Origin: Calliopum simillimum
Lineage: Eukaryota > Arthropoda > Insecta > Diptera > Lauxaniidae
Direction of reading: 5' to 3'
Length of the DNA stretch: 64,000 nucleotides
Assembly: GCA_951812925.1 (NCBI GenBank)
Contig: OX638368.1
Location: forward strand, 118,629,309-118,693,308
Below are positions 10,601 through 56,478 of the stretch, piece by piece. Within the stretch, counting starts at the first letter, position 1. Each line of letters begins with the position of its first letter. The notes beneath the pieces are model-generated. The model did no database searches and was not told the origin of the DNA. It was given only the letters and a program-made list of their open reading frames with translations. Made by a program: the position numbers and the translations under genes.

Positions 10601-11514
10601 CAGTTAGACTTTTTTCTGTGGGGTTACACGAAAATAAGGTTTATGTGAACGATCCGAAGATGATTCCAGACTTGAAAAGCAATATTACATTGGCGATTCG
10701 GGCCATTTTTATACTGAAAAATGTCATCGAAAAGAGATATCTACGGAATAACGTGGTGAACATTTCCGCAAATAATCCTAAGCGTGGAAAGAAATTAAAA
10801 GCTTTTTAGAGATAATAGCCTCGATCTCCCCCATAGAAAATTAAGTCGACTTCCTTTATTTAAACTTCAGACATGGTATAAAGATCCATCGCGATGAACC
10901 CCGGCATTTTCGCAGCTGAAAAAAGGCCGGGATTTCAGAATCCCGAAATCATCCCTAATACCAACTGTCTTGAAAAAAGTGAAGCAAAAAAAAAATAGAA
11001 AATTTTGATAACAGACCTTATTTTTAACTTTGCGAAGTGTAGTTTTGAAATAATTGAAACGTTGTTGATCTGGAGGAATATACGAAGCTTTAACTACTCT
11101 CTTAAACATTAAATAGTTATCCATAGTCTCGGCAGCAACCTGTGCTACTTCAGGATATTCAAATTCAACAAAAGCGAAACCTTTGCTTCCTCCAGTTCGT
11201 TTCGAGCGAACTAAACGCAATTGTGTTACATTTCCAAACTGCTCAAAATATTTCTTCAATTGCTCCTCGAAGAATCCGTGTGGTAAATGTTTGATGAAAA
11301 CAACTCCACGTTGATTTTCGATCTTCTTTTTTTGTTTCTTAATCTTTTTATCAAGCTGTGGATGGAAATCAGTTGTATGTTTCATATTAAAAGTTTGGGT
11401 CAAGAATCATTTATGTTTTACCTGTCCAGAAATAACGCCAGTTGCATTTTCATTGTTTGTTTTAGTTTGGCCTTTGGACGTTTTTGCTGGTTTTACTTTT
11501 TTTACAGGCGGCAT
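7693..11514 (-). CDS. Nifk: Nucleolar RRM protein, NIFK orthologue (MKI67 FHA-interacting type)
   Basis: Exons on the minus strand: 11422-11514, 11017-11355 and 7693-8451, all phase 0 (CAG|GTAAAA, CCACAG|CT, AAG|GTCTGT, TTTTAG|GC), giving 396 aa. The RRM spans residues ~47-125, with RNP2 VVFIKH (~49-54) and RNP1 KGFAFVEF (~89-96). Just after it lie YFKTTLRKVKNK and, in exon 3, KIEGLKNKYAHLGIDF, which match the conserved post-RRM block of NIFK. The C-terminus alternates acidic tracts (DDDDDDE) with Lys-rich basic tracts, usual for nucleolar ribosome-biogenesis factors. Role, from the family: large-subunit rRNA maturation. The second donor (GTCTGT) is weaker than usual. Intron 2 is 2.6 kb and full of transposon debris. 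Confidence 0.87.
9262..10965. mobile_element. Nested transposon debris in Nifk intron 2
   Basis: CTAGGG followed by CGGGATTTGAAA near 9,262-9,302 is loosely mirrored by TTTCAGAATCCCG and CCCTA near 10,930-10,960, suggesting one large inverted-repeat element. Inside, TCAAAAGGGCGTATTTCC (9425-9442) is the exact complement of 10241-10258, and related GGAAATA(C/A)G(C/G)CCTTTTG motifs occur at 9612 and 10096. This is probably several nested non-autonomous insertions. The outer boundaries are uncertain. Confidence 0.45.
10440..10810 (+). pseudogene. Mariner/Tc1-superfamily (DDE) transposase fragment
   Basis: The plus strand reads FQQDGATPHTTRLNLDYLL, then NWSSRSCDLTQLDFFLWGY, then KVYVNDP. These match the second and third catalytic regions (HTxR and CDLTPLDFFLWG blocks) of a mariner-like lineage common in insects. 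Frame breaks and stops follow, and the first Asp region is missing. A dead fragment inside Nifk intron 2. Confidence 0.7.
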
Positions 11515-11997
11515 AATGATAAGCACTTATTTTATCAAACTTTTCCTATAACTTTAATAAATACAAGTAAATGAAATAAACTCAACAAAAAACCACACGT
11601 GCAATGAAAACCGCGGAACACATGTCATCCGCTATTTGACATTTATCACAGAGATGCCAGAGATGTTATTCTTAATCAACTTCTATCAATTTCGCGTACA
11701 ATCTGCAGGGACGATTTTTATTTTGCTTGGGTATGAGCAAGTTGTTTACGATTGGAATTCATTTTTTCGAAATAGTCTTAATTAAATATTATGTAATTTA
11801 TAAATTTATAGCAGAATTTAATAGTTATATAAACTAAATAAATAAATACATACATACATACCTTTTTATTTTGCTACTTTGCAAGCCAAAATGCTCCAGA
11901 TCGGCTATTGAAGTTAATTATACTTATTTTTATTGGAATATGTTTTGTTCGTACGGCAAAAATTTCGTACGAATTCGTATTCAATGTAATCTTTGAT
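11515..11997. other. Nifk upstream region
   Basis: It should contain the Nifk promoter and 5' UTR; a CACGTG E-box lies near 11,598. The palindrome TTCGTACGAATTCGTA near 11,964 belongs to a motif family also seen at 14,585 and at 27,128-27,302. No other gene seen. Confidence 0.4.
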
Positions 11998-12457
11998 TAT
12001 AACCCTTTCAGACCCAGATTACACGATTGTGTTATCTGAATTTTCCAGAGTTAAACCATTTTTATTTATTACAATAAAATCGGTTAAGTACATACATTTT
12101 TCGCTATACCAGAAATAGTAGTACTTTTACAAAAATTTTCATTTTTTTTGATACCGGCAATAATACATTGGCCCAAGTACAATATATTAGCACCAGCATT
12201 AACATCACGATTCCAACAAGTATTGCAATTTGGACAAAATTGATACCTGTGTGGTGATCGTGATGTTTTATTTTCAAAATAACAATTTGCACATAGCTTA
12301 GTGGTTCTATATTCATTAACTAACATAATGTCGACATTTTTATGCTCTCGCAATGCCCGTACAAATTTCCGATGTGGTGTCCGTATATAGCCGCGCACTG
12401 GTGACCCTGATGAGATTTCACTTGAACCGATACAAATTAGAGTCGATCCATTATTAC
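11998..12457 (-). pseudogene. Fanzor fragment, copy 1 (C-terminal part only)
   Basis: A 460-bp segment equal in length and almost identical (I count about three mismatches) to 17237-17696. On the minus strand it encodes the last ~120 residues of the nuclease: the NEYRTTK motif, the CANC/CPNC zinc ribbon, NRDVNAG, and a stop at 12,084, followed by 86 bp of shared 3' sequence. Homology ends abruptly at 12,457, where a takeout-like exon fragment begins. The RuvC-I Asp is absent, so this copy cannot be an active nuclease. The high identity implies a recent duplication or conversion. Confidence 0.85.
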
Positions 12458-12462
12458 TACAG

Positions 12463-12627
12463 AAAGATCCTGTCGGATTTCCAGGCACTCCAATATCAGA
12501 TCCAATGGATGTGCCAGATATGAAGAAAAGTATGGGAATGGCTAATTTGAATATGATGCAAGTGAAGACGCATGGTTTATCTAAATTTCGCATACATAGC
12601 ATCAATGCGGACTTAAAGGGCTTATAA
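12463..12627 (+). pseudogene. Exon fragment resembling takeout/JHBP-family proteins
   Basis: After a good acceptor (TTACTACAG) the plus strand is open for 54 codons, including GTPISDPMDVPDMKKSMGMA and a GLSKFRIHSINADL block. Insect takeout/JHBP secreted proteins have a similar 'DP..VPD...GLS.F.I' region. The exon abuts the Fanzor fragment and ends at a stop without its other exons, so I read it as an orphan exon piece. The family call is tentative. Confidence 0.4.
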
Positions 12628-13226
12628 GTTTTTTTTTTTTAAGTAAAATACCTAATATTTTCAAAAAAACATATGATGACGTTATTTCTGTGGCGATAAG
12701 AAGCAATTGAGCGAAGATTGACTTAAGATTCTTATTGCCAGTGATTTAATTAAATTTAAAATAATACATAATAAAGTAAGACTTCTATTTATTATATACT
12801 TATTTATGTTGTAAAACTTTTTAATTTTATAGTGGTTTTAAGAAATCATTAAACCATAGTGTTACATACATAAAACGGAAAATTCAGCTTAAGCCGATTC
12901 AAGACAAACTAAATTTAAGACAATTTTATTTATTTAATATAGTTCGTTAGTATGCATTATGATGGCTAACAAAAAAAGAAATATTCTTGAACTGAATAAT
13001 TCAGCAGAAACCGGATACAAAACTTAGGTAGTATATGCTCTAATGATTGCATGACATGTCAAGGAAGAATTAATTAAAAAAAATAAAAATAATTAAAAAT
13101 TTTAGAATTTGGACCCTTTTTGAAAAAAGTAATCTAGAGCAAACGACAAATGTTCCCTTCAATGTGTTTTCTGATAACGGTTGGAAAACATTTTTTTCTT
13201 AGTTAAATCTGGGCTTTGAAAACGCT
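12628..13226. other. No gene seen
   Basis: AT-rich spacer between the orphan exon and the duplicated block. I see no coding signal. Confidence 0.4.
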
Positions 13227-14013
13227 GAAATCAATCTTATTTGTGGAGTACAGATGTGTACTCATGATGTAATCAATTCAACGATTTTATCAAATAACAC
13301 AGAACCATGTATACTACGAAAGATTGCATCTCAAAAAAAAAAATAAACAAATTTACCAAATGGATAACAAAAATGAACAATTTCATTAGGGTATTTCTTA
13401 AAACATATAAAAATCTCGAAAACCTCGTAAACATTTACACGTTTTAAGGTATAACCTTACTAGACCAGAACGAAATTGCATTAAGAAAAGATTTTATGTA
13501 TATTTAATTAATTCCGTCATATACCTGATGTCAAAATGATTATAAAAAACTAAATTTTTTATTAAATTAGGTATTAGGTAAATTACAAATTAATTTATTA
13601 AGTAAAAAAGTATAAGTATATTTAACGTTAAACTGACTAATCAAAATATCACACCTATATTTCAAAATCAGACCAACATAAGTATTATTGTTTGTCCTTA
13701 TTTGGTGGTAAAGGTAGAAATTCACGATCAGATTCACGTATAACTCCAGCGGGAAGGAAGCGGAGCACTTCAGGTGGTTGAGTTTTTAACAATCGAATGC
13801 GTTCCTCCTCAATCAGTTGATCCCTGAAAATAAGTTTAAAATAAAAATATAACATACATTAAACTCTCGTGTAATACATTAAATTGTTATCATAAACAAA
13901 CAAGTGACAAGCAATATGATGTACCTCTTTTGTTGTTCCTTTATCTGCATTTCATAATCTTGAAGAACCTCTGCTGCTTCAATTGCCCGTCTACGTCGAT
14001 TTTCCTCTATCAT
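13227..14013 (-). repeat. Source copy of a segmental duplication covering the 3' part of Mns1
   Basis: 13227-13298 matches 18909-18980, and 13299-14013 matches 21368-22092, same orientation and nearly identical apart from a microsatellite. The block holds Mns1 exon 3, its intron and the 3' part of exon 2, plus downstream flank. Because the exons here connect to the full gene, I take this as the source copy. Confidence 0.85.
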
Positions 14014-16819
14014 TTCCTGAATTGCTCGTCCATGCTCCATTATTTTGCGACGTCGTTTCTCATTCGATAGCTGTTCTATTTTATCACGTTCTGCTAAGAT
14101 GCGCATATGCTCCATACGCATCTTATTTTCTTCATCCATTTCGCGTTCTTTATTTTGACGTACAATTTCTTTTTGATATCGTTCAAGTTCAGTACGCATT
14201 TGAATACGTTGCTCAATTTCTTTCTCTAAGGCACGCCGAAAGCGGAAATCATCATTTGCTTTTCGCTCCTCGACTAATAAGTCGAGCAATAAGTTTTCAC
14301 GTTTTTGTTTTTCACTCTGTAAACAAAACAAAATTTATTCTCAATTTGTGTAAATGTGTTAGTTTACCAATTGATTTAATCTGTGTTAATATTTATTTCC
14401 CGGGGAAATTTTGGAGAGTATTCAAAGCACTTGTAAATGACCGTAAACTACGGAAGAGGAGATAAAGGACACAAGAAGAAGAAAAATTTTTAATTTTACT
14501 ACAAAAGGTGCTCTTTAACCGAAATGTGGTGCGCGAGGAACAGAAAATCAAAGACGATAAAGCCAAGGTTACACTGGATATGACTTCGTACGAAAATTAA
14601 GTCATACGATCAAAACATGTTCCTTTGTTCTTTGTATTAGTCGTACGAATGACTGATAAAAAACAAAATATTTTGTTCGCGACTTAAACAAAGAAAAATT
14701 AATTATGCATGTTTCTATTGGAACATGGTTCGCGCTCAATAAAGACATTTCAGTTTTTACGAAATGTTTAACGATCAAATTTCAAGGAACGCGCATTTCT
14801 GATACATAAAATTCTTTTTTGAATAATGAAGTTAAGCAGACTTTGGGGCAGTAATATCCAAAGCTTATTCCCACGGGCACTTGAGCTTTTTTGCTTAAAA
14901 GTTTTCCGTTCAACTGTGTCAGGAGTTGTGCGGATCTCGTCACTTGCTTGCAGCTAATGCAAAATAAAAGCTTTCAAAGAGTTTTTATGCATTGACCAAA
15001 TGCGCTAGTATTGAGTTTGGCTATCAATGCTTTTGGGGTAATGCAACAAATTTTAAGTGCATTGAAGTTTTCACTATCACAAAATAAATTCTTTAAAAGT
15101 GAAAATTTTTCCAGTACCACTAATTTTTCCAGTTCCACTAAACGAATTAATGGAAATGAACTAAATTTATTGATGATAGAAAACTGTAAATAGTTGCAAT
15201 CTTCATATCTGATGTTAAGTAATGAACTCAGTCATGCTTCAAAAAAGTTTAAATTAATTTGGAAAAACGGCAGGTTAATTTAATTTGAAAAAAGTTTATC
15301 TTCATTTGGAAAAAGTTTAAATTGAATTGTAAATAGATAAAATTTGTTGTGAAAAAGGTTTAAATTGCAGTGGAAGTCCTGTAAAAAGGAAAGCATAGGA
15401 GATAATATGGTATATATGTTGGTGCCGTGACATAATCCCCACGGACATAATCCCCATTCACGATATGGGGATAATGTCCGCAAGTTATTCGGACATAATC
15501 CCCATTTTTTCAATGGGATTATGTCCGCAAGTGTTTCGGACATAATCCCCAGGAAAAAACGGACATAGTCCCCATAACGATATTTTGTTATTGACAACAG
15601 AAGCAGCTCAGGATTTACAACTCCCAAAAATTCCACAGTAATTTTACATAAGGGTAGGGGTAAGTGGGCGGCCTGCGGCCGCAACTCAGGATTTAAAACT
15701 CCCAAAAATCCAATACCGGCTTCGCGGCGGCCTTCGGCCGCGGATTAGTCTATAATATCCAACACCATATAAATTTTTTAAATGGATTATTGCAAAAATT
15801 TTGTTCAATCTTAATTAAATTTTTCAGACATAACCCCCATTGGGATTATGTCCGAAAAATTTGCGGACATAACCCCCATGGCCAAAATGGGGATTATGAC
15901 CGAAAAATTTTCGGACATAATCCCCATTTACGAAATGGGGATTATGTCCGTTGGGATTATGTCCGGTAACCATATATGTTCTTACTTCAATTACGTATAA
16001 TTGCTTTCCAATTTTTTCGCTTTGCGCCTGTGAACGTTCAATAGCTTCACGTTTTTGATCCTCACGACGTTTTTTCTCTGCGTCACGTTGTCTCATCATC
16101 TCAAGAAACCGTTCATTTTCATCCACTTTTAAAGAGCGTTCTTGTGATTTTATTAATTCTTGAGTGTGTAGAAATTCCTGCATTTCTGTTTTAGCTCTTT
16201 CCTTTCGAGCAGCCAAATCCTTTAGTTCTTGTTGTTGCTCGGCTGCAATCTTCTTTACAGTCTCTTTCATGGTCAATTTATCTTTGAGTATCTCTTCATA
16301 TTCTTGCATTTTTTTCGTTTGTGTCTGCGACATTTGCTCCAGTAACACATTACGAAACTTTTCTTTTTTACGACGTTCTTCTTCCTCTTGTTTGCGTGTG
16401 AGTTCTACGCATTTAATGCGTTCTTGTTCAAAATTTTTATCATCTCTTCGTTTGTCCAATATCTGCTGATCCTTTGCTTTATCAACCTCAGACTTCTGTT
16501 CGACGAGTGCTTTCGAAACATATGCAGCCCGAAGCTGAATCTCCAACTGTCGCAGCTCTTGTGAATTTTCACGTAATTGTTGTCGCCGTTTTTTTTCAAG
16601 AAACTGTTCCTTTTTATATTCCTTTAATTCTGTTGAAATGTCTATTGATTCATTTTGTGCTTTAATCCGAGGATTTTCCGCTGTTGATTGGATTTCCTGA
16701 GCACGTAACTGCTTCACCCGCCGATCTTCCTCAAGGACAGTTTGGATGAATTGAGTGTTGGCTATCTCCATTTGCCGCTCAGCATTTTGGGGAATTGTGC
16801 AACGTAACTTTTTAAACAT
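13685..16819 (-). CDS. Mns1-like coiled-coil ciliary protein (trichohyalin-plectin-homology family)
   Basis: Minus-strand exons 15986-16819, 13925-14316 and 13685-13823 (donors GAA|GTAAGA and AG|GTACAT; acceptors TTTACAG|AG and TTTTCAG|GG; phases 0 and 2) give 454 aa. Nearly the whole protein is charged, heptad-like helix (ERRKKEKFRNVLLEQ, ERDKIEQLSNEKRRRK). It ends in EVLRFLPAGVIRESDREFLP, which matches the tail of MNS1 proteins, and the length is close to vertebrate MNS1 (~495 aa). From the family: a microtubule inner protein of motile cilia and sperm flagella, so testis or chordotonal expression is expected. Intron 1 (1.67 kb) carries a foldback inserted beside the donor. Another TPH-domain protein such as CFAP53 is the main alternative. 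Confidence 0.75.
15421..15971 (+). mobile_element. Foldback transposon with 9-bp target duplication (copy A), Mutator-like candidate
   Basis: A 551-bp element between exact 9-bp repeats ATATATGTT (15412-15420 and 15972-15980). Both arms consist of alternating GGACATAATCCCCAT and its complement, and the ends are GGTGCCGTGACATAATCCCC and the complement of GGTTACCGGACATAATCCC. The centre is GC-rich with NotI-like palindromes (GCGGCCGC). Copy B at 49245-49723 is inverted. No coding capacity. Confidence 0.85.
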
Positions 16820-16981
16820 TGTATATTTCTATTATTGAGAATTTTTTGTATTTTTCTAAAATTAATATATTTCCAATAGCAACGAAAATTAAAAAACAAT
16901 TAAAATCAAACATTCAAAACGAATTACGTTCAGTTTTTCCCCTATTTTGTGTTTTGACAGAAAAGTTACGGTCAGTTTTCC

Positions 16982-16982
<1 letters not shown>

Positions 16983-17029
<47 letters not shown>

Positions 17030-17209
17030 TTCGAATAAGTCTGTATATATACAATAATTCAATTTTTAAATATTTACAGTAGTTCTACCAAAAGGTCTTA
17101 TGAACTAAAAAAATGCTCACAACCAAATATAAAATTGAGCTATTATTACATACATATGTTTTATCTTAATAAGCTAAATAGGATACAATTCAATACTTTA
17201 GAAGCAAAG
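16983..17209 (-). mobile_element. 5'-truncated copy of the non-LTR element at 53,816-55,796
   Basis: About 180 bp matches the reverse complement of 55,607-55,780, ending in a long T-run here (poly-A on the minus strand). It contains only the 3' UTR. It lies just upstream of the Mns1 start and next to the Fanzor right end. Confidence 0.8.
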
Positions 17210-17236
17210 ATGTGCACGACCTAGTTTACACCATCA

Positions 17237-17322
17237 TATAACCCTTTCAGACCCAGATTACACGATTGTGTTATCTGAATTTTCCAGAGTTAAACCATTT
17301 TTATTTATTACATTAAAATCGG
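17237..17322 (-). ncRNA. Candidate omegaRNA / right-end region of the Fanzor element
   Basis: The 86 bp after the Fanzor stop codon is shared with copy 1. It contains a 24-nt hairpin at 17254-17277 (plus strand CAGAT, T, ACAC, loop GATT, GTGT, T, ATCTG), also at 12015-12038. Homology between the copies stops at 17237 and 11998. In TnpB and Fanzor systems the guide RNA scaffold is transcribed from the 3' end of the gene through the right element end. That this region does so here is inference; no transcript evidence is available. Confidence 0.35.
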
Positions 17323-18871
17323 TTAAGTACATACATTTTTCGCTATACCAGAAATAGTAGTACTTTTACAAAAATTTTCATTTTTTTTGATACCGGCAAT
17401 AATACATTGGCCCAAGTACAATATATTAGCACCAGCATTAACATCACGATTCCAACAAGTATTGCAATTTGGACAAAATTGATACCTGTGTGGTGATCGT
17501 GATGTTTTATTTTCAAAATAACAATTTGCACATAGCTTAGTGGTTCTATATTCATTAACTAACATAACGTCGACATTTTTATGCTCTCGCAATGCCCGTA
17601 CAAATTTCCGATGTGGTGTCCATATATAGCCGCGCACTGGTGACCCTGATGAGATTTCACTTGAACCGATACAAATTAGAGTCGATCCATTATTACCAGG
17701 TCCAACAAGTTCTTTAGCCAGCTTATGACAAGTCTTCTCTACACAAATGTATTTTTGTAGTTTTAATCTGGTTACTTTACGTTGACTGAAAATCATTTGT
17801 TTTTCAAGCAATATCTCCAATTCGTATTGCGTATAGTTCTCCAGATCCTCAATTGAATTGGCCGAATATTTTGTATTTTCTGGGCACATTGAAGTGAATC
17901 TTTTTAATTTACATTTGCGCGAATAGAATCCGCTCATATAATGATATGTAGAATTTTTCAATTTAATTGGCTTTCCATTACGAACTCCACCATATATCAA
18001 ACGTAATCCCGGATCAAGACCAATTTTGTTGGCATATTCTGTTGAGCGTATTTTCTCCAAATTGACATTTGTATAGTATTCAATTTCTTTGTTTTCGCCT
18101 CGAATTGCTGAAGTTCTTTTTCGTTTTACAGAATTCTTTGCAGTATTTAACTTTACAATTGGTTTTCGCATTAGAAACGATACAGCTACACCGTCGGTCT
18201 GTAAAGAATAATCAAATTTTTTCTCTGACAAGGATTGAGCGTACGGAATTTTGAAATATTTTTGCCAATGTTCTGCACGATCGAAAGTTTTCCATGGACC
18301 CTTGTACAACTTTAACGAACACAACAGCGAATGGAAGGCAAACGAATCATAGCGAATATGATGTGCTCCGTGGTTGAATATGGGAATCATTGAGAAATTG
18401 CGATAATTGTTTCTTTCGTTGAATATTTGTAGATTAAAAAATAGTTTAATGCCTGTTGACCAATATAGTTTTTTATTTTTCAAGTTAGATAATTTTTCAC
18501 CATTCCATTGCAATTCGTCGATCAAATGAATCAATAGATCAAAATCTGGCTCTTTGTTTTTATTGTCATCTTGGTCGCAGAATAAATAGTTTAATGTATT
18601 GTAGATTTTTGTATTATCTTCAGTGAATTTCTTGAAAAACCTTCGTAGTCTACTATACGCATGCATCCATATGTTGTTGTGAAATATGACGCTATACTGA
18701 TTGGCGGAAACGATGAATAAATTTGATCGGTATGCACTGTTGTAAAACGGCAAATCTTTACGAAATTTAGCATAGTCCTCGTCGATACTTTGGTTTTTTC
18801 TTTACCATCAAATGATAATAATAATCGACAAATTTTATTTCGTCAAAATCTCCAGCTTTCCATTTTCTCAT
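17323..18871 (-). CDS. Fanzor nuclease (eukaryotic TnpB-like), near full length with an N-terminal frameshift
   Basis: A continuous minus-strand frame of 476 codons (18,753-17,323) ends in a TnpB/Fanzor C-terminal half. Numbering from 18,753: RuvC-I IGLDPGLR with Asp247; a beta-strand block STLICIGSSE (Glu366); NEYRTTK with Glu401; zinc ribbon C408/C411 and C427/C430; RuvC-III NRDVNAG with Asp437. From Fanzor work, the catalytic Glu may be the relocated one in the EYRT motif. Upstream, an ATG at 18,871 opens MRKWKAGDFDEIKFV in a frame that passes into the main frame near 18,800 only through a one- or two-base shift, so the N-terminus is either frameshifted or spliced. The protein would be ~510-520 aa, short for Fanzor. 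Known family role: RNA-guided DNA endonuclease carried by transposons. Present-day activity is unknown. Confidence 0.8.
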
Positions 18872-18980
18872 TAGAACAAAATGTATATATCTGTGTGTGT
18901 AGAAATCAGAAATCAATCTTATTTGTGGAGTACAGATGTGTACTCATGATGTAATCAATTCAACGATTTTATCAAATAAC

Positions 18981-21362
18981 TGTGGCGGACAGGTACTGGT
19001 TGCACAAGCATTGTTCTGCCTGAACGGGGACATTCATAGTAAACGTTCTGAAAGTGCACTACATTGCAAAGCAAAAAAGAAAAGACAACCAACTTCAGAG
19101 AACTGGTTGAGAAAAAATGGGAGGTTGAGTTTCCGACATCGTGTCAGGTTTTTCTTTCTGTTTAAAGAAGTCAACGTGCAACGTCAGTATCTTTAGAAAG
19201 ATTGATAAAATAAATGCAACTGTTTGCGTTACAAACATAAATTTTCTGGAGTGTGGATTTACATGCAACTTTCAACCGAAAGATAAAAGAAAAATTCCGC
19301 AGCAAAAATTCCATCAATTTGGAGACAAAAAGTTAAGGATTCTCATACTAATAGTCAAATTGCGAAAGGCGGTAGTCCGAAGGAAATCCCATCAAGTTTA
19401 TTGCCGCTGTACTGCCAAAATCATCGTCAATTACAAATCGTCGAAAGTAACAGCACGCTAGATTTCATCACGATAAAAGGTGGGAAAATTCCCGCTTCAA
19501 CACATTAATTCGTTCCTGCTAAATGTGGCTTAGTTTTTGGTAACGCCACTAAGAAAATAGAATTAAAGCTAAAATAGTGTTGTAGGCCCGGGTAAGAAAG
19601 CAGAATACGTGAACAAAAAGAAAAATCCGAAGAAAATAGATCTAGAGACTACCAATTCTCATCATTGCCCACTAACGTTCACCACGTTAATGCCACAAAG
19701 ACAACTAAACACATTGAGCAATACTTCATCATAATCCTGAGCATAATTCAGAACAACAGCCACGTCAATCGGAGCCCACCACATCTGAAAATCCAACAAG
19801 CTACAACATTCAACCAAAACAACACCAACAGACGACAGCAAAATTGTCCGACCTGCGAAGGATTCAATAAAATAAGCAAGTATGGTGACTAAAAAAAAAT
19901 AAGTAGAAGAAATCATAAATTTTAAGTTGTTTGAAAAATATTGAAGGTTTGCAGAAAGTAAATAGGTTAGGGAGATTCTAAAAAAAAAAAAAGGCAAAAT
20001 GCAAATTGCCTAAAAAAAAAAAAAACTATCATCACAAAAGATATTTTTTTTTGCTGGTTTCTATAATTTCGTTTTATTATTTGAATAACAAAAATAATTT
20101 AAGAATAATTAACTAAAAAAGAAAGAAAAAACAACAAAAAAATTGGTAGAAACTAAAAAGAAAAAAATATAAATTAAGAAAATGTATTTGTCAAATTAGA
20201 GTTAGAACTAAGTGAAGAAATAAGCTACAGATATTGTGTCAAGGTTTATTTATATGGCGTAATTTCGTTTTTCTTTTCAAAATTTTTTTGCGAGTAAAAG
20301 TATATTTCTCTATAAATTCAAAGCCCCTGTAGGAATTGGCCAAACCCTATAGAGCATATAATGACTGTAGAATTTCTATAAAAGCGGAAACGATGAATCG
20401 ATGAATTTATCGTGATATAAATAAACCTAATAGAGGAAGTACTACGAAAAATCTAAAAACTAAAGTATATTATGGAAAGATAGAATTTGCAGTTATTAGG
20501 AAACAATATAAAGTTGTGTAATTGTTACGATATATGTCATTTAGGTATTTATTGCATTAATACTTACCTGTGAATATTTTTACGTTTGAATAATTTTCAC
20601 TTACCGTGTGTAGTGCTGTCTTTTGAGACCTATATAAGAAAAATTGTTATATATTCATAAGAAGAGATTAACAAAAAAAATATCAGATAAATTAAGACGA
20701 ATCTTAGATTAATTAAAAATACTTTAAATTTAAAATTAACTAAGATCTAATTTATAAATTTATGTTCAATTCTCTGCTTATGCGTATATAATTAAATAGA
20801 ATTACTTATTTTTTAAGCTTACCTGGTTATTTTTCAGTATCCAATATTAAGTTTGTTTATAAATAAAAAAAAAAACAACCAAATGTTTTTGTACAAATTT
20901 ATGAAGTGAAATGTGTCGTAATTTTAATATGGAGTAGAGATTTTGTCTAGTATGTTGAGGTGAAGTAGAAAGGAACTCATTTATTTTCGGGGGTATCCAC
21001 ACATAATTAGGCCAACGTGGATGCCTAAGGTGACTGTAAGGTCAGAGGGAGGGTCGGCTAAGTGCAAGTACATCTGCACTGGTAATCTCGTTTGTCTGAA
21101 AATGCTCATTAGGAATTTCTCCTCACGCTTTTAGTGCTTGGATAGTGTTTAATGTTTATCTCCTTTAATCGCAATTCTTTCTCATCTTTTGTGTCTTTCT
21201 ATTCCCTCCTTTTCCCTATAAACTTACAATTTTGATTTTGGCACGCATATAATTTTTAAATATGACGGTTTGAGAGCGGAAAAAACCCACTCATTTTCCG
21301 GCGAGCTCAAGCCGAGCACCGATGTTTCGCCAGCGTGCCCCGCTCTAGCAACCTTCCGTTAT
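18981..21362. mobile_element. Unclassified ~2.38-kb insertion with ATAAC target duplication
   Basis: Comparison with the source copy shows a clean insertion: sequence continuous at 13298/13299 is split here, and ATAAC is repeated at 18976-18980 and 21363-21367. The insert begins TGTGGCGGACAGGTACTGG and ends CAACCTTCCGTTAT. The left third has short, GC-richer open frames, one with QQNCPTCEGFN; the rest is A/T-rich. I cannot find terminal repeats, a reverse transcriptase or a transposase. Candidates are a decayed LTR-type element or a non-autonomous transposon. Confidence 0.6.
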
Positions 21363-21764
21363 ATAACACAGAACCATGTATACTACGAAAGATTATTATT
21401 ATTATTATTATTATAAGAAAAATATACAAATTTACCAAATGGATAACAAAAATGAACAATTTCATTAGGGTATTTCTTAAAACATATAAAAATCTCGAAA
21501 ACCTCGTAAACATTTACACGTTTTAAGGTATACCCCTACCAGACCAGAACGAAATTGCATTAAGAAAAGATTTTATGTATATTTAATTAATTCCGTCATA
21601 TACCTGATGTCAAAATGATTATAAAAAACTAAATTTTTTATTAAATTAGGTATTAGGTAAATTACAAATTAATTTATTAAGTAAAAAAGTATAAGTATAT
21701 TTAACGTTAAACTGACTAATCAAAATATCACACCTATATTTCAAAATCAGACCAACATAAGTGT

Positions 21765-22092
21765 TATTGTTTGTCCTTATTTGGTGGTAAAGGTAGAAAT
21801 TCACGATCAGATTCACGTATAACTCCAGCGGGAAGGAAGCGGAGCACTTCAGGTGGTTGAGTTTTTAACAATCGAATGCGTTCCTCCTCAATCAGTTGAT
21901 CCCTGAAAATAAGTTTAAAATAAAAATATAATATACATTAAACTCTCGTGTAATACATTAAATTGTTATCATAAACAAACAAGTGACAAGCAATATGATG
22001 TACCTCTTTTGTTGTTCCTTTATCTGCATTTCATAATCTTGAAGAACCTCTGCTGCTTCAATTGCCCGTCTACGTCGATTTTCCTCTATCAT
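21765..22092 (-). pseudogene. Mns1 3' fragment (exon 3 and part of exon 2)
   Basis: Nearly identical to 13685-14013, including the stop, the intron with its splice sites, and the FLPAGVIRESDREFLP coding end. Exon 2 is cut short at 22,092. It lacks the gene start, so it is a duplicated fragment that could act as a 3' exon for a fusion transcript from upstream pieces. Confidence 0.8.
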
Positions 22093-22129
22093 ATAATAAC
22101 AAAGTGAATGAAAAAAATGTGCTGTAGTT

Positions 22130-22395
22130 GTTTCAACTTTTCCACAATTTATCGATGTGAGATTTGATCCTGTTCCCAGTTGTACTGCTTGATTTGATTC
22201 TCGAGCAGTTCCATGCGTGTGCGACAGAATGCCTCATAGTTACCGGTATAGTATTAAAGGCGTTTTTTCGTCATATTTTTAATGTTGGTGCACACACCAT
22301 TGAGGAAATCTTGTGATTTGTGGGCTCATCCAGTAGCAACAAATGGGGTTTGACGAAAAGTGCACGCGCCAAAGCGATACGCATACGCATACCTA
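22130..22395 (-). pseudogene. ABCF2 (ABC-F ATPase) fragment with internal deletion
   Basis: The minus strand gives [20 protein letters not shown] then PTNH, the Walker B region of ABC-F proteins, then jumps to a segment matching 'NGVCTNI..M.KKRL', then [20 protein letters not shown] and [11 protein letters not shown], diagnostic for ABCF2. A stretch of roughly 30 residues between the Walker B block and the later block is missing, and a stop precedes YYTGNYEA. A dead fragment fused directly to the Abl piece upstream. Confidence 0.75.
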
Positions 22396-24690
<2,295 letters not shown>

Positions 24691-30480: not shown

Positions 30481-31479
30481 GTGCAAGGTATAACTTGAAA
30501 GCGTGAAGTCTGATCTAAGCCATTTGTGTATTGGTTTTGTTAACTAATGTAAGCTTGTTAAATTTAAGTTTTGTTATCTTGTAGTTAAGTAAATGCTTTG
30601 CACATTTTCTAAAATTCAATTTAAAGCTGATTGGAATTCGGTTACTAACTTGGTCAAAATATATTGTACAATTTAATACAAACTATTTCAATGATTAAGT
30701 TTAGAAAATGCAGTCACGCCCAAAATTATTTATCCAATGATTTATTAAAAAAAAAAGGGTAAGATGAATATGAGATCAAGTAAAAAAGCAATTTTTTTTA
30801 TACAATCGAATTCAAATTTGCTAAACCCTCATAAAATTTATGGAGTTCTGCTGATAAAAAAGTTTAGTTTGTTCTAAAGTTTCCCAAAAATAAAAGTTAA
30901 AAAAAATTGCCTTCAATTTGTATAGAGACGTTTTTTTTTATCAGTTCCCAATTAATTTACTAGGTTGAATTGTTAAACAAAACCCTGAAATACTTATAAT
31001 TTAAGTCAAAAATAAAAATATATACACATACAAATATAATAAAAACTAAAAATAAAAAAAGATCGAAAACAATCGAAACCGTTAATTAAAATAAAGTTAT
31101 ATAATATAAGTAATTAATGATTTAAAATTTATGGCGTCATAAAGAAATTTTCAAATAAAATTTATTTCAAAACATGATGCTAAATTACTTACTTAGCCTT
31201 TGCATAAACCTACATACATATACGAACAATTTGCATATAACAATATAAAACTATATTTTTTTAAAGATAAAGTAATTTTTAATCATTATGTTGAATATTT
31301 AAACATACAAATAAATTTTTTTTTTCTACTACACAAAGATAACCAACTATAAATACATTATTGTTGTGAATTATTTGCAAGTTTTGTTATTTATTTGACT
31401 TTTAACGTTTATACGATAGATAGGCTGTGAGCAAGATAACAAGATTAGACTGATATTAAAAATTAATTTTCATTTTTCG
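30481..31479 (+). other. Atg13 3' UTR and AT-rich spacer
   Basis: AT-rich. Several AATAAA-type signals occur (for example near 31,010 and 31,090), so the Atg13 transcript probably ends in this stretch. No other gene. Confidence 0.45.
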
Positions 31480-32040
31480 CGAAAACGTATTTTCACACGT
31501 TAGGTATGTTTTCACAGAACAAGTCACATATAGTTTTGGCGTCAAACACTTTTCTCTTACAATTGCGATGACTTTGATCTCTTGCCACGATTTTCCCGAT
31601 TCTTGGATTTCCTTTTCCAACGACTTTTTCCAGTTGGTTTTGGGCCTACCACGTCCTCTACTGCCTTGTGGATTCCACTCAAGGGCCTGGCGACAAACTT
31701 CGCTGTGTGGTTTCCGGAGAGTGTGACCAATCCATCCCCATTTGCGCAGCTTGATCTCGTTTGCTATTGCCTTCTGTTTGCATTTTTGATGTAGCTCGGC
31801 ATTTGATATAGTGCGAGGCCACCAAACCTTTAGTATACGCCTTAAGCATTTGTTGACGAATACTTGCAGCTCGTTCGTTAGTTGCTCAGTAACAAGCCAT
31901 GTTTCGCACCCATATAATAAAACCGATTTCACATTCGAATAAAAAATGCGCACTCTCGTTTTGGTGGATATAACGGATGAAGACCATATTTTGTTCAGTT
32001 GAGCAAACGCGCCTTTTGCTATTCTTGAGTTGATAATAAT
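31480..32040 (-). pseudogene. RTE/BovB-like non-LTR reverse transcriptase C-terminal fragment
   Basis: The minus strand reads AFAQLNKIWSSSVISTKTRV, then SVLLYGCETWLVTE, then NKCLRRILKVWWPRTISNAE, KLRKWGWIGHTLRKP and GRGRPKTNWKKSLE. These are standard blocks of the region after the palm in RTE-type elements. The catalytic FADD motif is not present, so only the 3' part survives. Confidence 0.75.
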
Positions 32041-33082
32041 ATAATAATTTTAGAACTTGCAAAAGCCAGTCTAACTTGCTACTTCTCATGGAAGCATTTC
32101 TTAAAGCGCTTCTTGTTCCTTTTACCTATGATCTTACATCAAACAAATATTTTAATATTAACAACAACAAAATACACTGTCACACAAAGCTGAAAAAAGG
32201 ACAAAGTATGTTACTTTTATGATGCAAATGGATAACATTCAGAAGGAGGAAGATCTTGACATTCTGGAAGAATTTTTTTTTTTAAAATCGTGCTCAAGGA
32301 TAAGCATCACTACAGAATATCACTTTTCCATCATGCTGAAAATCTTAAACAAACTACACTCAGGGAAAAAACGATAACTTTCACTGTTGATTCAATAGAT
32401 ATCAGTAACGATTTAGAGCCAAGGGCGAAATTACTTGAATTAATTGTGAAAAACTATTGATTTTTTGAAAGTGATTAGCATTCAAATCAAGTAATATTTA
32501 CTTGGTTTCCTTCTGAAATGATTGTTACACTGTTATACTTTTAAAAATTTTATTTAAAGCTCATAAGTTGACAAATTTTTTTTATAACAAAAGAGTGTAC
32601 TAAAATCATAACCAAATGGTCATCTTAACGATGTTTTTTGGTATTAAAATATTCTTCGAAACATATGAGTACAAACCAAACTAAAAAATCTTGGTCACTA
32701 CCAAAAACAGGTCGACGGTAAACTTGAAAAAATTATAGTAGTTTTGGTTAGTTTTCTCTAAGATTTCTGTTTAATGGACAAACATAACAAATCGCATTAT
32801 TGATATATTGGTTATAGTCCGGGAGCCGGCAATACTAAAAGTGCCGTCATCGCGGATTCTGAAATTTTTAATGCAAAATGGTAGTTTACACTAAGACGAA
32901 TAAGAAAAGCTTGGTCAGCGTGGTTATAGCCTGGCAGAAATATTTTTAAATGATTTTTGAATTATTAAATTTTCGGAATGTTTTGCTTACATCGCGGATT
33001 TTGATCAATCTTAATATTAATCGATGATAAATTTTATAACCATTCAGAAAATATCTCGCCGACCAAATTTTGTTTGCCGAAA
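32041..33082. other. No gene seen
   Basis: AT-rich spacer, no coding or RNA signal noticed. Confidence 0.4.
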
Positions 33083-33535: not shown

Positions 33536-33581
33536 AAAATTCAACCCATTTGTTTCAGTATTGTCTGCTTTATGACTACTA

Positions 33582-34297
33582 TATCGATACCTTAGAGCGC
33601 TTTAGTCCTATCTCCACTTTTTGCGATTTTGAGATTTTTGCAGTTATGGCATCATTGTGGGCTTCTTTACCGTGTGGAAAACTGTGTGATGTCAAAATAC
33701 CACTTAAATACGAAAATATTCGATAATTAAGAAAAATTCTATCTCCAAACTGTAATTTTTTCAAGAGCGCTACTGTCCTATCTCCACTGAATATTCAAAT
33801 AAGTCACATTTTTAAAAAAATTTCTTCGTTTTTTCGCATTTTCTTCACGTTTCGTGACTATTTGCGACATTTTAGTGAACAAATTTGGTTACACCCAAGG
33901 CTCCACTCTTGTTTGTCGGAACCAAAAATTCAAAAATTCAAAAAAAAAAAAAAAAAAAAAATTCGTTTTTTTCGCGTATCATGACTTTTTACGACATTTT
34001 AGTGGAAAAATTTCAAAAAATGTACTAAATACGTCGTTTTTTTCAATAGTAGTGGAATTCTATATAAGGGCAAAAGTAATGACACACTATAAATTGGCTG
34101 GGATTTCGTTAGAAATTAATTAAATTGGTTAAAAACATTAAATTATGTTAAAAGATACTATAGGTAAAAATATTGCATGTATCGTTATATCAAAATAGCA
34201 GCCAATCCTAAATTACCACTGTTTGAAATCTTCTTTTTTGCATTTCCCAACAATTGGAAAAATGGAGATAGGACTATTGCGCTCTAAGGTATCGATA
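33582..34297. mobile_element. 716-bp inverted-repeat unit, first of a tandem pair
   Basis: Begins TATCGATACCTTAGAGCGCT and ends in its complement, with terminal inverted repeats of about 35 bp that continue into TAGTCCTATCTCCA. The second unit (34310-35025) has the same length and is very similar. The interior has CTGTCCTATCTCCACTGAAT and an A-run. No transposase. Confidence 0.8.
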
Positions 34298-34309
34298 TGC
34301 TCATTTGTA

Positions 34310-35025
34310 TATCGATACCTTAGAGCGCTATAGTCCTATCTCCACATTTTGCGATTTTGAGATTTTTGCAGTTATGGCATCATTGTGGGCTTCTTTACCG
34401 TGTGGAAAACTGTGTGATGTCAAAATACCCCTAAAATACGAAAATATTCGATAATTAAGAAAAATCCTATCTCCAAATTGTAATTTTTTCAAGAGCGCTA
34501 CTGTCCTATCTCCACTGAATATTCAAATAAGTCACATTTTTAAAAAAAAGTTTTCGTTTTTTCGCGTTTTCTTCGCGTTTCATGAACCTTTGCGACATTT
34601 TAGTGAACAAATTTGGATACACCCAAGGCTCCACTCTTGTTTGTCGGAACCAAAAAATTAAAAAAAAAAAAAAAAAAAATTCGTTTTTTTCGTGTTTTCT
34701 ACGCGTTTCATGACTTTTTATGACATTTTAGTGGAAAAAATTCAAAAAATGTGCTAAATACATCGTTTTTATGAATAGTAGTGGAATTTTATATAAGGGC
34801 AAAAGTAATGACACACTATAAATTGGCTGGGATTTCGTTAGAAATTAATAAAATTGGTTAAAAACATTAAATTATGTTAAAATATACCATTAGTAAAATT
34901 ATTGCATTTATCGTTATATCAAAATAGCAGCCAGTCCTAAATTACCACTGTTTGAAATCTTCTTTTTGCATTTCCCAACAATTGGAAAAATGGAGATAGG
35001 ACTATAGCGCTCTAAGGTATCGATA
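34310..35025. mobile_element. 716-bp inverted-repeat unit, second of a tandem pair
   Basis: Same ends, orientation and length as the first unit, separated from it by only 12 bp. Differences are scattered substitutions and A-run length changes. This points to a tandem duplication or two insertions at the same site. Confidence 0.8.
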
Positions 35026-36271
35026 TATTCTTATTAATTTAAACTGATTTATTTATATATAAGCAGTTCTTTCTCCGTCTTTTCCAACTTTAGTAGTAAA
35101 AAAGAATGTCGTCAAAGAAATTTATACAATTGATTTAACGTGCTTGGAATTCCCTTTTCCTCAAAAATGTGTCGGTCTGAAAAATCAATTGCGAACATTT
35201 CTTATGCCCAGTGGCGGATCCAGCATTGTCAAGAGGGGGGGGCCCGATCGACTACATTTCTAGATAATAAATGAATATTTTTCTCTCAAATTTTTTTTTT
35301 CAAATTTTTATTTTTGATGAACGAAAATTGCCTCTCAATCATAAACAAATTCAAACGTTTCTATGGAAATAGAAATAGTAAGAAAAAGGCAAAAGTGTAA
35401 GATTATTTTACACTAGAAAATAGCTTGACTAAAAGGGTAAAAGAGTAACAGAGTAACTGACGTATATTTTGATGTTGTGGTTGTGCACTGTTACCCAGCG
35501 TCGGTAAACGACTCCCCAAGATTAGTTTTAAAGCCAAAACATAAACTACGCAGTATTTTTTACAATTACATGAAAAGAACTTTATAAGAAATTGAAGAAT
35601 TTTCTCCCAATAATCGGTATTTTATTTGCTGGCAAAGATATATAGTGAAGTTTGAAATTTTTGCAAAGCTTACAATTCCTTTTTGAAAGTAAGTTCCACA
35701 AAATCTGATTTAATTAGCCATATAACTACCAACAAGCACAATTAGACCCTAACGGTGGTCAAATAGATTTACATTATAAAAGCGTATTTAGTCATGTACA
35801 AATGTTAAAAACATGTGTAAAATTACGATTTTTTGGGTAAAATTTTATAGTGGAACGAATCGTCGGTTGCCTCGGTATGGCAGCACTTTGAGGCATTGAT
35901 GATGATCATCTAAAGCGCTCTAATGTCATTTTGACATTTCATTTCAATTCAGTTTTTTAATGCATAATTTTGTGTAGTTTTATTATAATTATTAAAAAAT
36001 ATAAAAATAAATAATAGAGTTTGAAAAGGTAAACAACAGTGTTGCTTTTATAGATTTACAAATAAATCGTCTTTCTAGTGTTTTTTTTTTTAACACCTAC
36101 ACGAATAAATAATAGAGAAAATTTTCTTCAAGAAATTCTTGTTGCCAAATTAGGGAGGAGATCACAGTCGTCGTCATCAGTATCTCGTCCGTCGTCGCAA
36201 AGTTAAAAGCAACGCAAAAATATTAAAACTACATATAAAAATAAATTAAATAAGTGTAAATTTTGCTCAAC
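35026..36271. other. Intergenic; PINCH upstream and 5' leader
   Basis: Near 35,210 the motif CAGTGGCGGATCCAGC followed by a G-run looks like the end of another DNA transposon, with no partner found. From about 36,100 the sequence becomes GC-richer (CGTCGTCGTCATCAG region), which fits the PINCH 5' leader before ATG 36,272. Confidence 0.4.
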
Positions 36272-48404: not shown

Positions 48405-49244
48405 ACTTTTTGTTTCTATGTAGTTAATTTTAATGAAATTGAAATACGTAAGGCACTGGTAGAAAAAATGTCCAACTAGTTAATTTAATTAGTATTCCTT
48501 TGTTTTTACCTTTTAGTTTCTTTGACCTTGTTGTGTGTGTGGGCGTTGGTTTTGATTTTAACAGAAGCTTTTGTGTGGGTGCCAATTTAAGTAAGCATAA
48601 ACAAAACAAAACATTAATTATGCACTTTACAATGGATAAAAAAACGTAGAGTATTTTTAGGTGCGAAATGTTAAGTGACAGTTTTCGAGTTTGTGTGTTC
48701 GCAAAGTATAGAGAAACAGTAGAATTGACAGTTGACAGTGGATGGATGCTAGCGAAATGTCAAATTGCCAAAACAAAAAGCTAAAATTTTGACAATAAGA
48801 AAAGCTTTAACTGTAAGGAACATGCATCCTCGGAATTCGAGAGAACTGAAGAATCATCACCGGAATTCGTGAGAAAAACTCAAAATAAAGTTAAATTACA
48901 GACAGCATAGTATGCTTAATATTAGTTGTAGCGTTTGGGTTTCTCAATTGTAGTGGACGATATTACTCAAATGTTTCATGTCCCATAAATTCTGGTAAAG
49001 AGTGTACTTTACCTTGCCGATCTTTGCTCAAAGCTTCGAAAGATATGATTATATCTTTTTGTATTGCCAGATTGGGGAATTTTCCCCTTAATTTAATGGA
49101 ATTTTTAAGAACTGAAGGTCAAACTTGGGGATTTATTCAATTGCTAACGGGATTTCTTTAAGGGATCAGGGTATATCTAAGATTGTCGAATTCAACTCAA
49201 ATAAAACAAATCAGTGCTCAAAACGTGTGATTAAACTTGATGCA
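48405..49244. other. Ipp upstream region
   Basis: Presumed Ipp promoter and leader. Around 48,830-48,890 GGAATTCGAGAGAA and GGAATTCGTGAGAA form a short direct repeat. No gene seen. Confidence 0.4.
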
Positions 49245-49723
49245 GGTTACCGGACATAATCCCAACGGACATAATCCCCATTTCGTAAATGGGGACTATG
49301 TCCGAAAACTTTTCGGTCATAATCCCCATTTTGGCCATGGGGGTTATGTCCGCAAATTTCTCGGACATAATCCCAATGGGGGTTATGTCCGAAAAATTTA
49401 ATTAAGATTGAACAAAATTTTTGCAATAATCCATTTAAAAAATTTATATAGTGTTGGATGTTATAGACTGATCCGCGGCCGAAGGCCGCCGCGAAGCCAG
49501 TGTTGGATTTTTGGGAGTTTTAAATCCTAAACTGCGGCCGCAGGCCGCCCACTTACCCCTACCCTTATGTAAAATTACTGTGGCTAGCAAACTAGGTGTT
49601 GGATATATTATGTTGCGGACATAATCCCCATTGAAAAAATGGAGATTATGTCCGAATTATTTGCGGACATAATCCCCATATCATGAATGGGGATTATGTC
49701 CGTGGGGATTATGTCACGGCACC
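49245..49723 (-). mobile_element. Foldback transposon with 9-bp target duplication (copy B)
   Basis: Inverted relative to 15421-15971. Ends GGTTACCGGACATAATCCC and GATTATGTCACGGCACC, between exact 9-bp repeats CTTGATGCA (49236-49244 and 49724-49732). 479 bp; internal GGACATAATCCCCAT arms and a GC-rich centre are shared with copy A. Confidence 0.88.
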
Positions 49724-49732
49724 CTTGATGCA

Positions 49733-53815: not shown

Positions 53816-55796
53816 GTAATGAGATAGAAAAATGTGCAGGCGATTCAAAAATGATCTGGAAGAGTGTTAATTCTTTATTTAAAGAAAATACCAAAAAAAC
53901 GTATCCTATATATGAGAATAATGTCTTACTTGGTGATCTTGCCATTGCTAATAAATTTAATGATTTTTTCAGTTCCATTGGTCAATCAATGTCGCAATCT
54001 TTTGTTTGTTTCCCTTGGGATGACATAAATTTTTTTCAATCTCTTAATCCTATGGCTCAGACTAGGTCCTTTGTTTTTCAAGGGTCCTCGGTATTGGACG
54101 TGGAAAGGGTTATATCCGCTCTAAACAATAAAACTTCTTCTGGTTGGGACGGTGTCTCGAGCATTATTTTCAAAAGTTGTAAGCATGAACTTTCGCCAAT
54201 AATTTGCAATATTTTTAATGCAATAATTGACTCTGGCTCCTACCCGGACCCCTTGAAAATTCAAGCTGTGACCCCAGTCTTTAAACGCGGCGAAAAAAGT
54301 AACCCGGATCACTATCGTCCAATATCAATGCCTCCAACTCTGAGTAAGATTTTTGAAAGGCTCTTGTATAACCAAATTTACAGTTATGTCATGGAACAAA
54401 ATCTTCTATATGAACACCAATATGGATTTCTCAGAGGATTGGGTACTCAGACAGCTCTTATTGAACTGGTCGACCTTGTTTGTAAAAACATTGCTAGGAA
54501 CAAGTTGGTGGGTGGAATGTTTCTTGATCTAAGCAAGGCGTTCGATTCGATTGATCACGATATTCTCTTGGAAAAATTAAAGTACTATGGGTTTTCTACA
54601 GGTTCGATTAGTTTAATTAAGAGTTATTTGAGTAACCGGAAACAATTTGTCTACATTAACAATGAAAAGAGTGATTTCAAATCTGTTGGTGTTGGTGTCC
54701 CTCAGGGCTCTGTCCTGGGGCCTCTGTTGTTTTTAATATTTATTAACGACATTGCAAGATTGCCACTAAAGGGCAAAATATTCTTATTTGCAGATGATTG
54801 CTCGATTTTCTATCCTGGTGATACCATCGATGAAATTAGAAGGGACGTGAAGGATGATTTAGTTGTTCTTGATGAGTTTTTTCGATTGAATAAATTGCAT
54901 CTTAATGTAAATAAAACAAATGTCATTTGCTTCCGCAGCAAACGGAAGTAAGTGTCTGGTCTTGATATTCTCCATAATGGAGTCGCAATAAGTGAGGTAA
55001 ATTGCATTAAATTTCTGGGCGTCAAAATTGATTGCTTCTTGAGCTGGCATGATCATATTGATCTAGTAGAAAATAAATTGTCCATGGTCAATGGGTTACT
55101 TTACAAGGTCAGGCATAAGCTTTCGACGGAAGTAAAGAAGTTGATCTATTTTGGTCTCGCGCATTGTCACATCACGTATGCAGCTGGCACATGGGGTTCT
55201 TTCTCCAATATAAATAGAATTCAGGTGATACAAAACAGAATGCTTAAAACGTATTTAATTTACACTATCGCTATCACTCTGTGGATATATTCTTCAACTT
55301 TCGTATCTTACCAGTGAAGCAGATTTATAAATATCAATTACTTTGCTATATTCACAAAATAACAAAAAACTTAATTCCCAACACTGTGCAAATTGTAAGC
55401 TTTCAACACTCTTACAATACAAGAAACAGAGATAACCTGGTTGTCTCTCGTGCGTGTAATATGATATCATCTCAAAACATTTCCCATAACGGTGTAATTT
55501 ATTATAATGAGCTTGATAGATCCTTAAAGGGCTTAGAAAATATGGTGATATTTAAAAAAAGACTGAAAGAATTTTTATTAGATAGAAATAGACTAATAGC
55601 TTTATTCTAAAGTATTGAATTGTATCCTATTTAACTTATTAAGATAAAACATATGTATGTAATAATAGCTCAATTTTATCTTTGGTTGTGAGCATTTTTT
55701 AGTTCATAAGACCTTTTGGTAGAACTACTGTAAATATTTAAAAATTGAATTATTGTATATATACAGACTTATTCGAAATAAAAAAAAAAAAAAAAT
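53816..55796 (+). mobile_element. Non-LTR retrotransposon, 5'-truncated, reverse transcriptase nearly intact
   Basis: The main frame (to a stop at 54,949-54,951) covers the reverse transcriptase: SSGWDGVSSIIFKSC, VTPVFKRGEKSNPDHYRPIS, MFLDLSKAFDSIDHDIL with the first Asp, VPQGSVLGPLLFLIFIND, and the catalytic LFADD box. Frames after the stop continue with the linker and tail to 55,610 with one frameshift. A 3' UTR and poly-A end at 55,796. The endonuclease and first ORF are missing, so it is a 5'-truncated insertion. A CR1/jockey-type clade is likely. A shorter copy is at 16,983-17,209. Confidence 0.88.
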
Positions 55797-56478
55797 AAAA
55801 AATAAGAAAAAATTTTTCAGACAAAATTTTCTTATTTTTTTACGTAGAATCCGAATCTGCAATAAAAATTGGGGGTATCCATTTAAAAATTTGATTTTTC
55901 CCCCGCCCCACCCCCGTCGGAGGGGATCAAGATTCATATCGTTGAATAGATCTCTGAAAATTATTGGACACGTGATTTTTTGTTTTTAGATTTAACATCC
56001 AATTTCTGAAATATTTGCCCGTTCCGGGATTTTCCTAACGATATGTATGTAATTTACAGAAAATTGGACTTCAACAAAACATTGCTTTCCACCATGCAAT
56101 GCTTTCTAAATGAAATTTAGAATAGCAATAGCTATGAGAATTTTCTATCCACAACAGAAAACAGAATTAAAATATCTTAAATGGTTCAGAAGTTATGATT
56201 TTTGCAACGAGAAATGCCAGATGTCGCCACTGTGCGTCGTGTGATTTGACAATTTTGAAATAAATTTTTTTTCAAATAATAGCTTTGTTCGCGTTCAAAA
56301 AATTGTTAACAAGAAAATTTCAGAGAGTAAGTAGAATTTACTCTCAAAAAAACGAAAAACTACAAAAGTACGAAAACGAAAAATTGTTAAAAATTGTTAG
56401 AAATTAAGGGGCTAACTGCCATGGGAATTCTCGTATATTCAATATAATTTTTTTTTTCTTTCTATGATAACAACAGTT
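55797..56478. other. No gene seen
   Basis: Includes a CCCCCGCCCCACCCCC-type C-rich patch near 55,900 and AT-rich spacer. Nothing supported. Confidence 0.4.

Follow-up and report, generated by a model that had tools for sequence, protein, structure and literature searches.

A Fanzor1 Nuclease Frame, Probably Degenerate, and a Second Element Fragment in a Schizophoran Fly Genome

Organization of the locus

Fanzors are eukaryotic RNA-guided DNA cutters and cousins of the CRISPR-like TnpB. The window, the whole stretch of 64,000 nucleotides that was analyzed, harbors a Fanzor1 open frame (hereafter copy 2) on the minus strand at 17323..18801, which encodes most of the REC region, the RuvC domain, and the TNB zinc ribbon. 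Counting its stop codon (17323-17325), the frame spans 492 codons from stop to stop, not the 476 claimed by the first-pass annotation from which this work started. This length is far beyond chance; when the 2-kb region was shuffled 500 times at the mononucleotide level, the longest frame obtained had 164 codons (mean, 79).

All of the motifs named in that annotation are found in the claimed order when the minus-strand frame is translated. Numbered from the first codon of the frame, they are D263 (LDPG), E417 (NEYRTTK), and D453 (NRDVNAG), so that the earlier Asp247 and Asp437 lie 16 below the actual numbering. The zinc ribbon cysteines are C424, C427, C443, and C446. D263 and E417 are invariant in an alignment of 32 sequences, and D453 is nearly invariant. 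Copy 2 matches the Fanzor motif as published, D-X(125,275)-[TS][TS]-X-X-[C4 zinc finger]-X(5,50)-RD (PMC3627910), with 156 residues from D263 to the TT pair, CxxC/CxxC, and 5 residues from there to RD.

A protein search with copy 2 gave 21 matches at an E value of ≤1e-3, the top one at 9.2e-174. Eight of these 21 relatives (P0001 to P0008) share 51 to 59% identity with copy 2 across 92 to 97% of the query. A profile built from 18 sequences, the window protein and 17 others, widened the set to 40 relatives, which take in a wasp protein (Leptopilina boulardi) as well as Trebouxia and Phytophthora proteins. In a FastTree phylogeny of 29 sequences, the window protein and P0001 to P0007 group together with a support of 1.000, and a possible branching of the window protein outside P0001 has a support of just 0.533.

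On one side of copy 2 lies a gene with a TPH domain, the part of its identity that was tested, at 13879..16828 on the minus strand; we retain the first-pass name in calling it Mns1-like. Its frames at 16828..15824 and 14334..13879 match TPH profile positions 1-197 and 197-327, and they therefore represent one split gene. On the other side, at 21363..22092 on the minus strand, is a partial duplicate of the Mns1-like 3' end and flank, with 96.8% identity to 13294-14013, an interval that takes in the 3' part of the gene. Self-comparison of the window thus bears out the earlier statement that the Fanzor sits between two copies of an Mns1 duplication. The 3' tail of a non-LTR retrotransposon (16995..17203, minus strand), which is 97.1% identical to 55605-55812 beside a reverse transcriptase frame, is separated from the Fanzor end by 33 bp. 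The description of the DNA as a fly genome also holds, as the relatives of the neighboring Atg13 point to a schizophoran fly; within the best 120 of 365 matches, the best named relatives are from Glossina (63%), Teleopsis (62%), and Musca (61% and 60%), and the top match overall, at 70%, carries no species name.

Several other features of the window were observed. Repeats rich in inverted repeats, with the unit CGGACATAATCCCC, are present at 15412-15977 and 49244-49725 and are 96.5% alike over 339 bp; one of them sits between the two Mns1-like open frames. The 2.3 kb from Fanzor copy 2 to the duplicated Mns1-like end (19057-21362) is unexplained DNA. At 33580-35026, a segment of roughly 730 bp is tandemly duplicated (92% identity), and a frame with Pfam DUF6451 at 31456-32049 on the minus strand has the look of a retrotransposon remnant.

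A second copy and the ends of the element

The first-pass annotation described a single Fanzor, which is present, and overlooked a second fragment at 11998-13298 (hereafter copy 1). Self-comparison of the window indicates that 11998-12457 corresponds to 17237-17696 with 99.3% identity over 460 bp (three differences), and that 13227-13298 is 100% identical to 18909-18980; the two blocks have the same order and orientation in both copies. Copy 1 thus consists of a 3'-terminal 460 bp (11998..12457, minus strand), in which arginine 394 and the scaffold described below are kept, an interior of 769 bp without similarity to copy 2 (12458..13226, minus strand), and an upstream block of 72 bp (13227..13298, minus strand) that joins the Mns1-like 3' flank at ATAAC. 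The corresponding block of copy 2 (18909..18980, minus strand) is not recognizably coding. In copy 1, unrelated upstream DNA prolongs the frame of the Fanzor C terminus into a chimeric frame of 184 codons (12084-12638, minus strand), which has a hydrophobic stretch ahead of the zinc ribbon and, in Pfam, only the TNB domain. This frame is possibly due to chance.

The 3' terminus of the element reads CCCTTTCAGACCC on the plus strand at 17242..17254 and is the same in copy 1 at 12003-12015. Beside it, at 17238..17241, is ATAA on the plus strand (TTAT in gene orientation), a putative target-site copy. Identity between the copies on this side stops just past the terminus, at TATAA, and the flanks are unrelated. 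On the upstream side, the 72-bp block ends at GTTAT in gene orientation, so that in both copies the shared sequence has TTAT at either end, although on the upstream side this may reflect joining at a microhomology. ATAAC also starts the paralogous Mns1-like flank at 21363, which makes this 5-bp stretch common to three junctions. The upstream junction of copy 1 may therefore represent either a TTAT insertion or a join at the 5-bp microhomology.

These junctions raise the possibility of one old insertion that was segmentally duplicated together with the Mns1-like 3' end and then rearranged, with the TTAT borders being partly coincidence. We regard this as a plausible, if tentative, account. The Mns1-like 3' end is indeed duplicated nearby at 96.8%, and copy 1 joins the Mns1-like flank at the very ATAAC found at all three junctions, but the 3' identity stops at the terminus and TATAA with flanks that share nothing, as separate insertions predict, and the upstream identity between the copies stops at TTAT as well.

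No 5' terminal inverted repeat of 13 bp and no complete element better than chance was found in the window. The terminus is matched with three or fewer mismatches at 10 places, two of which are the element's own exact termini, versus an expectation of 5.96; a count of at least 10 was reached in 4 of 100 shuffles. One candidate 5' repeat, at 19056-19044, agrees at 10 of 13 bases, has no TTAT beside it, and accumulates 13 mismatches over 24 bases, and it was rejected. We likewise rejected an inverted resemblance of the upstream block to the 3' end, since it was equaled in 710 of 2,000 shuffles and a longer stretch in 811 of 2,000. Insect-virus Fanzor1 elements are described as carrying TTAN duplications and 13-bp terminal inverted repeats at both ends (PMC3627910), whereas copy 2 is chromosomal and broken and no 5' repeat was found for it; for lack of this repeat, the element is not classed as a Fanzor1 transposon of the insect-virus type.

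Searches outside the window gave the following results. Viral contigs with the terminus plus TTAN yielded 51 stretches, which were taken as chance matches, as none was found by tblastn with P0001 to P0040 at an E value of ≤1e-3. Viral contigs searched by protein gave 96 stretches from 3 loci, which cover the C-terminal part only. Among prokaryote genome contigs with the terminus pattern, there were 36 matches, none of them a relative. When the 30 bases past TTAT of each copy were taken as guides, no other match of more than 13 bases was found in the window.

Damage to copy 2

The first-pass description of the gene as near full-length stands for most of the protein, but its N-terminal 50 or so residues could not be located, and the frame is interrupted. 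The continuation of the Fanzor coding sequence, corresponding to residues of about 52 to 88 of the relatives, was located by tblastn at 18785..18892 on the minus strand, in a frame other than the main one. P0001 residues 52-87 match 18892-18785, P0002 to P0007 behave similarly, and the remainder matches from 18801 down in a different frame. The interval 17237..18871 given for the gene in the first-pass annotation accordingly contains the main frame, but its part from 18871 to 18802 belongs to the other frame, as tblastn with the relatives indicates. Because the two frames overlap, the interruption near 18785-18801 represents a frame break rather than an intron.

When residues 1-50 of seven relatives were searched against the window, no E value fell below 0.36, and neither tblastn nor a scan of the upstream DNA found a complete N-terminal region in one frame for copy 2. 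P0001 to P0007 have the N terminus that is missing from copy 2, and P0008 also lacks it; by structural alignment, SpuFz residues before about 85 to 88 have no counterpart in copy 2. An N terminus running upstream to about 19036 was considered and rejected, as it was equaled by 128 of 3,000 shuffles and by 453 of 3,528 stop-free stretches of 29 codons from the window. The gapped tblastn extensions by P0005 (to 19006) and P0006 (to 19000) owe to their downstream part.

Copy 2 also carries substitutions. Seventeen relatives share 85 nearly invariant columns, of which the window protein keeps 80 and has changed 5; F331L, R394W, and A410V fall at columns where all 17 agree. Residue 394 is still arginine in the translation of copy 1, and R394W is therefore a recent change in copy 2. 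At positions invariant in P0001 to P0008, the window protein departs at 26 of 161, versus 2 to 17 departures when each of P0001 to P0007 is left out in turn; the corresponding count for the fragment P0008 is 30 of 192.

The N-terminal loss and the frame break together point to a damaged copy and not a working gene. Judged from its sequence, copy 2 probably makes no working nuclease and is probably dead. The opposite reading, a working or host-adopted Fanzor gene whose frame break and N-terminal gap stem from errors in the assembly or from an upstream exon that escaped notice, would accommodate the stop-free frame of 492 codons, the retained D, E, and D residues and four cysteines, and the 80 conserved columns. 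We consider it improbable, as the overlapping frames leave no place for an intron between them, residues 1-50 of the relatives are unmatched, three substitutions lie at columns kept by every relative, and the departures at invariant positions exceed those of each of P0001 to P0007.

Family assignment, predicted scaffold, and interpretation

Our results clearly support the assignment of copy 2 to the Fanzor1 family by descent, a family that is already known, and here they agree with the first-pass identification. Pfam Cas12f1-like_TNB (PF07282) matches copy 2 with an E value of 6e-9 and 36.4 bits, above the cutoff of 26.3. NCBIfam guided_TnpB matches at 1.7e-7 with 30.8 bits, which is under the curated model cutoff of 100. 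These profile searches found no better match to a zinc ribbon protein outside TnpB. When the family profile was compared with solved structures, SpuFz1 ranked first, followed by LaTranC, Guillardia Fanzor1, Cas12f, and UnCas12m4a. In the profile match, D383, E541, and D606 of SpuFz1, the catalytic residues according to PMC11423790, align with D263, E417, and D453 of copy 2. The predicted fold has a RuvC core, so that the lack of an RNase H-like core, which would have spoken against a Fanzor, was not observed, and it includes the Fanzor1 fold elements RuvC, TNB, REC, and WED. In Foldseek, the three solved Fanzor1s occupy the top seven rows (structural alignment by VIA-align), the lower rows are RuvC cores of Cas12 and TnpB, and the nearest viral structure model is an insect nudivirus protein. 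That the gene represents another TnpB-like group, either Fanzor2 as carried by IS607-type elements or TnpB from bacterial contamination, is scarcely credible: the zinc ribbon part by itself does match TnpB, LaTranC, and Cas12f, but profile and fold fit Fanzor1 best, the single Fanzor2 structure among the matches listed has a TM of 0.26 versus 0.61, and the surrounding genes, such as Atg13, are fly genes.

Among known systems, SpuFz1, the Fanzor1 of Spizellomyces punctatus (PDB 8gkh, 9ceu, and others), shares about 17% identity with copy 2 by structural alignment, and SpuFz elements are described as having TA duplications and 33-bp terminal inverted repeats (PMC3627910). Fold matches were also obtained with a Tipula oleracea nudivirus protein (A0A0B4VG12; 33% identity) and a Helicoverpa armigera granulovirus protein (A9YMP5; 23% identity). 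The Hessian fly, Mayetiola destructor, is also a dipteran with chromosomal Fanzor1s, of another lineage and likened here by published description only; its Fanzors are said to cluster with insect-virus Fanzors, and in 2013 it was the sole insect species reported to harbor Fanzor elements (PMC3627910). Later accounts mention Fanzors in arthropods generally (PMC10432273) and in lepidopterans and their viruses (PMC10711439). None from a schizophoran fly was described among the PMC titles and abstract openings listed.

The 3' end of the element, 17238..17400 on the minus strand, overlaps the last codons of the frame and is a predicted guide-RNA (omegaRNA/reRNA) scaffold. The last 88 bases up to the TTAT end fold at -23.2 kcal/mol (z, -4.84; equaled in 0 of 200 shuffles), and the 163-base fold consists of a small hairpin and three successive stems (z, -3.13; 0 of 200 shuffles equal). 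In the last stem, UAACUCU pairs with AGGGUUA, which joins the terminal AGGG to TTA from the adjacent TTAT. Copy 1 has the same structure at -27.1 kcal/mol, with a single base difference adding a pairing in the second stem; the fold thus rests on two near-identical copies. As a control, 2,412 windows of 88 bases from both strands of the 64 kb were scored with 25 shuffles each; 28 reach the z of copy 2 and 15 have a z as low as that of copy 1. Among the windows with the strongest folds, several overlap inverted repeats, and one or more, including that at 11979 on the minus strand, overlap the end of copy 1 itself. The fold alone is therefore notable but not unique, and it is its position that makes it telling. 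Rfam at gathering scores gave no match within 11500-22500.

In insect-virus Fanzor1s, terminal inverted repeats and target-site duplications are described as part of a three-stem scaffold, and the RNA as running about 15 nucleotides beyond the duplication (PMC10711439, section 27). The TTAT and the fold seen here agree with the TTAN copies and with this scaffold as described for those elements, including those of SfAV, and the 3' end is likely a Fanzor guide-RNA scaffold of the published kind. The target motif of GtFz1 is given as TTAAN (PMC10432273).

We consider it likely that this schizophoran fly locus holds a degenerate copy of a DNA transposon encoding Fanzor1. Intact relatives of the transposon would follow a cycle of guide-RNA-directed cutting and repair. 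In such a relative, the 3' end of the element would be transcribed as a guide RNA, with a scaffold that extends into both the terminus and the target-site copy (TTAN), and the guide would be supplied by flanking host DNA. The Fanzor RuvC nuclease would then cut the matching empty site beside a TTAN-like motif, and repair from the element-bearing copy would restore the element, which may thus be retained. A bolder proposal, which we think unlikely, is that a live and as yet undescribed Fanzor1 lineage persists in higher flies, with intact copies elsewhere in this genome that insert at TTAT, build the target-site copy into the guide RNA, and cut their own empty sites, this cutting and its repair having given rise to the rearrangements around the Mns1-like gene. 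A scaffold-like fold that incorporates the flanking TTA is consistent with the proposed inclusion of the target-site copy in the guide RNA of Fanzor1 elements. Copy 2 is probably dead and therefore of limited value, but its presence in a schizophoran fly places the Fanzor family near Drosophila, where genetics is easy.

One observation concerns a relative found along the way. P0022, the protein of Leptopilina boulardi, bears a Fanzor C-terminal half (E value of 1.2e-40 to the family profile, with PF07282), and its public name, "caldesmon-like," therefore looks wrong.
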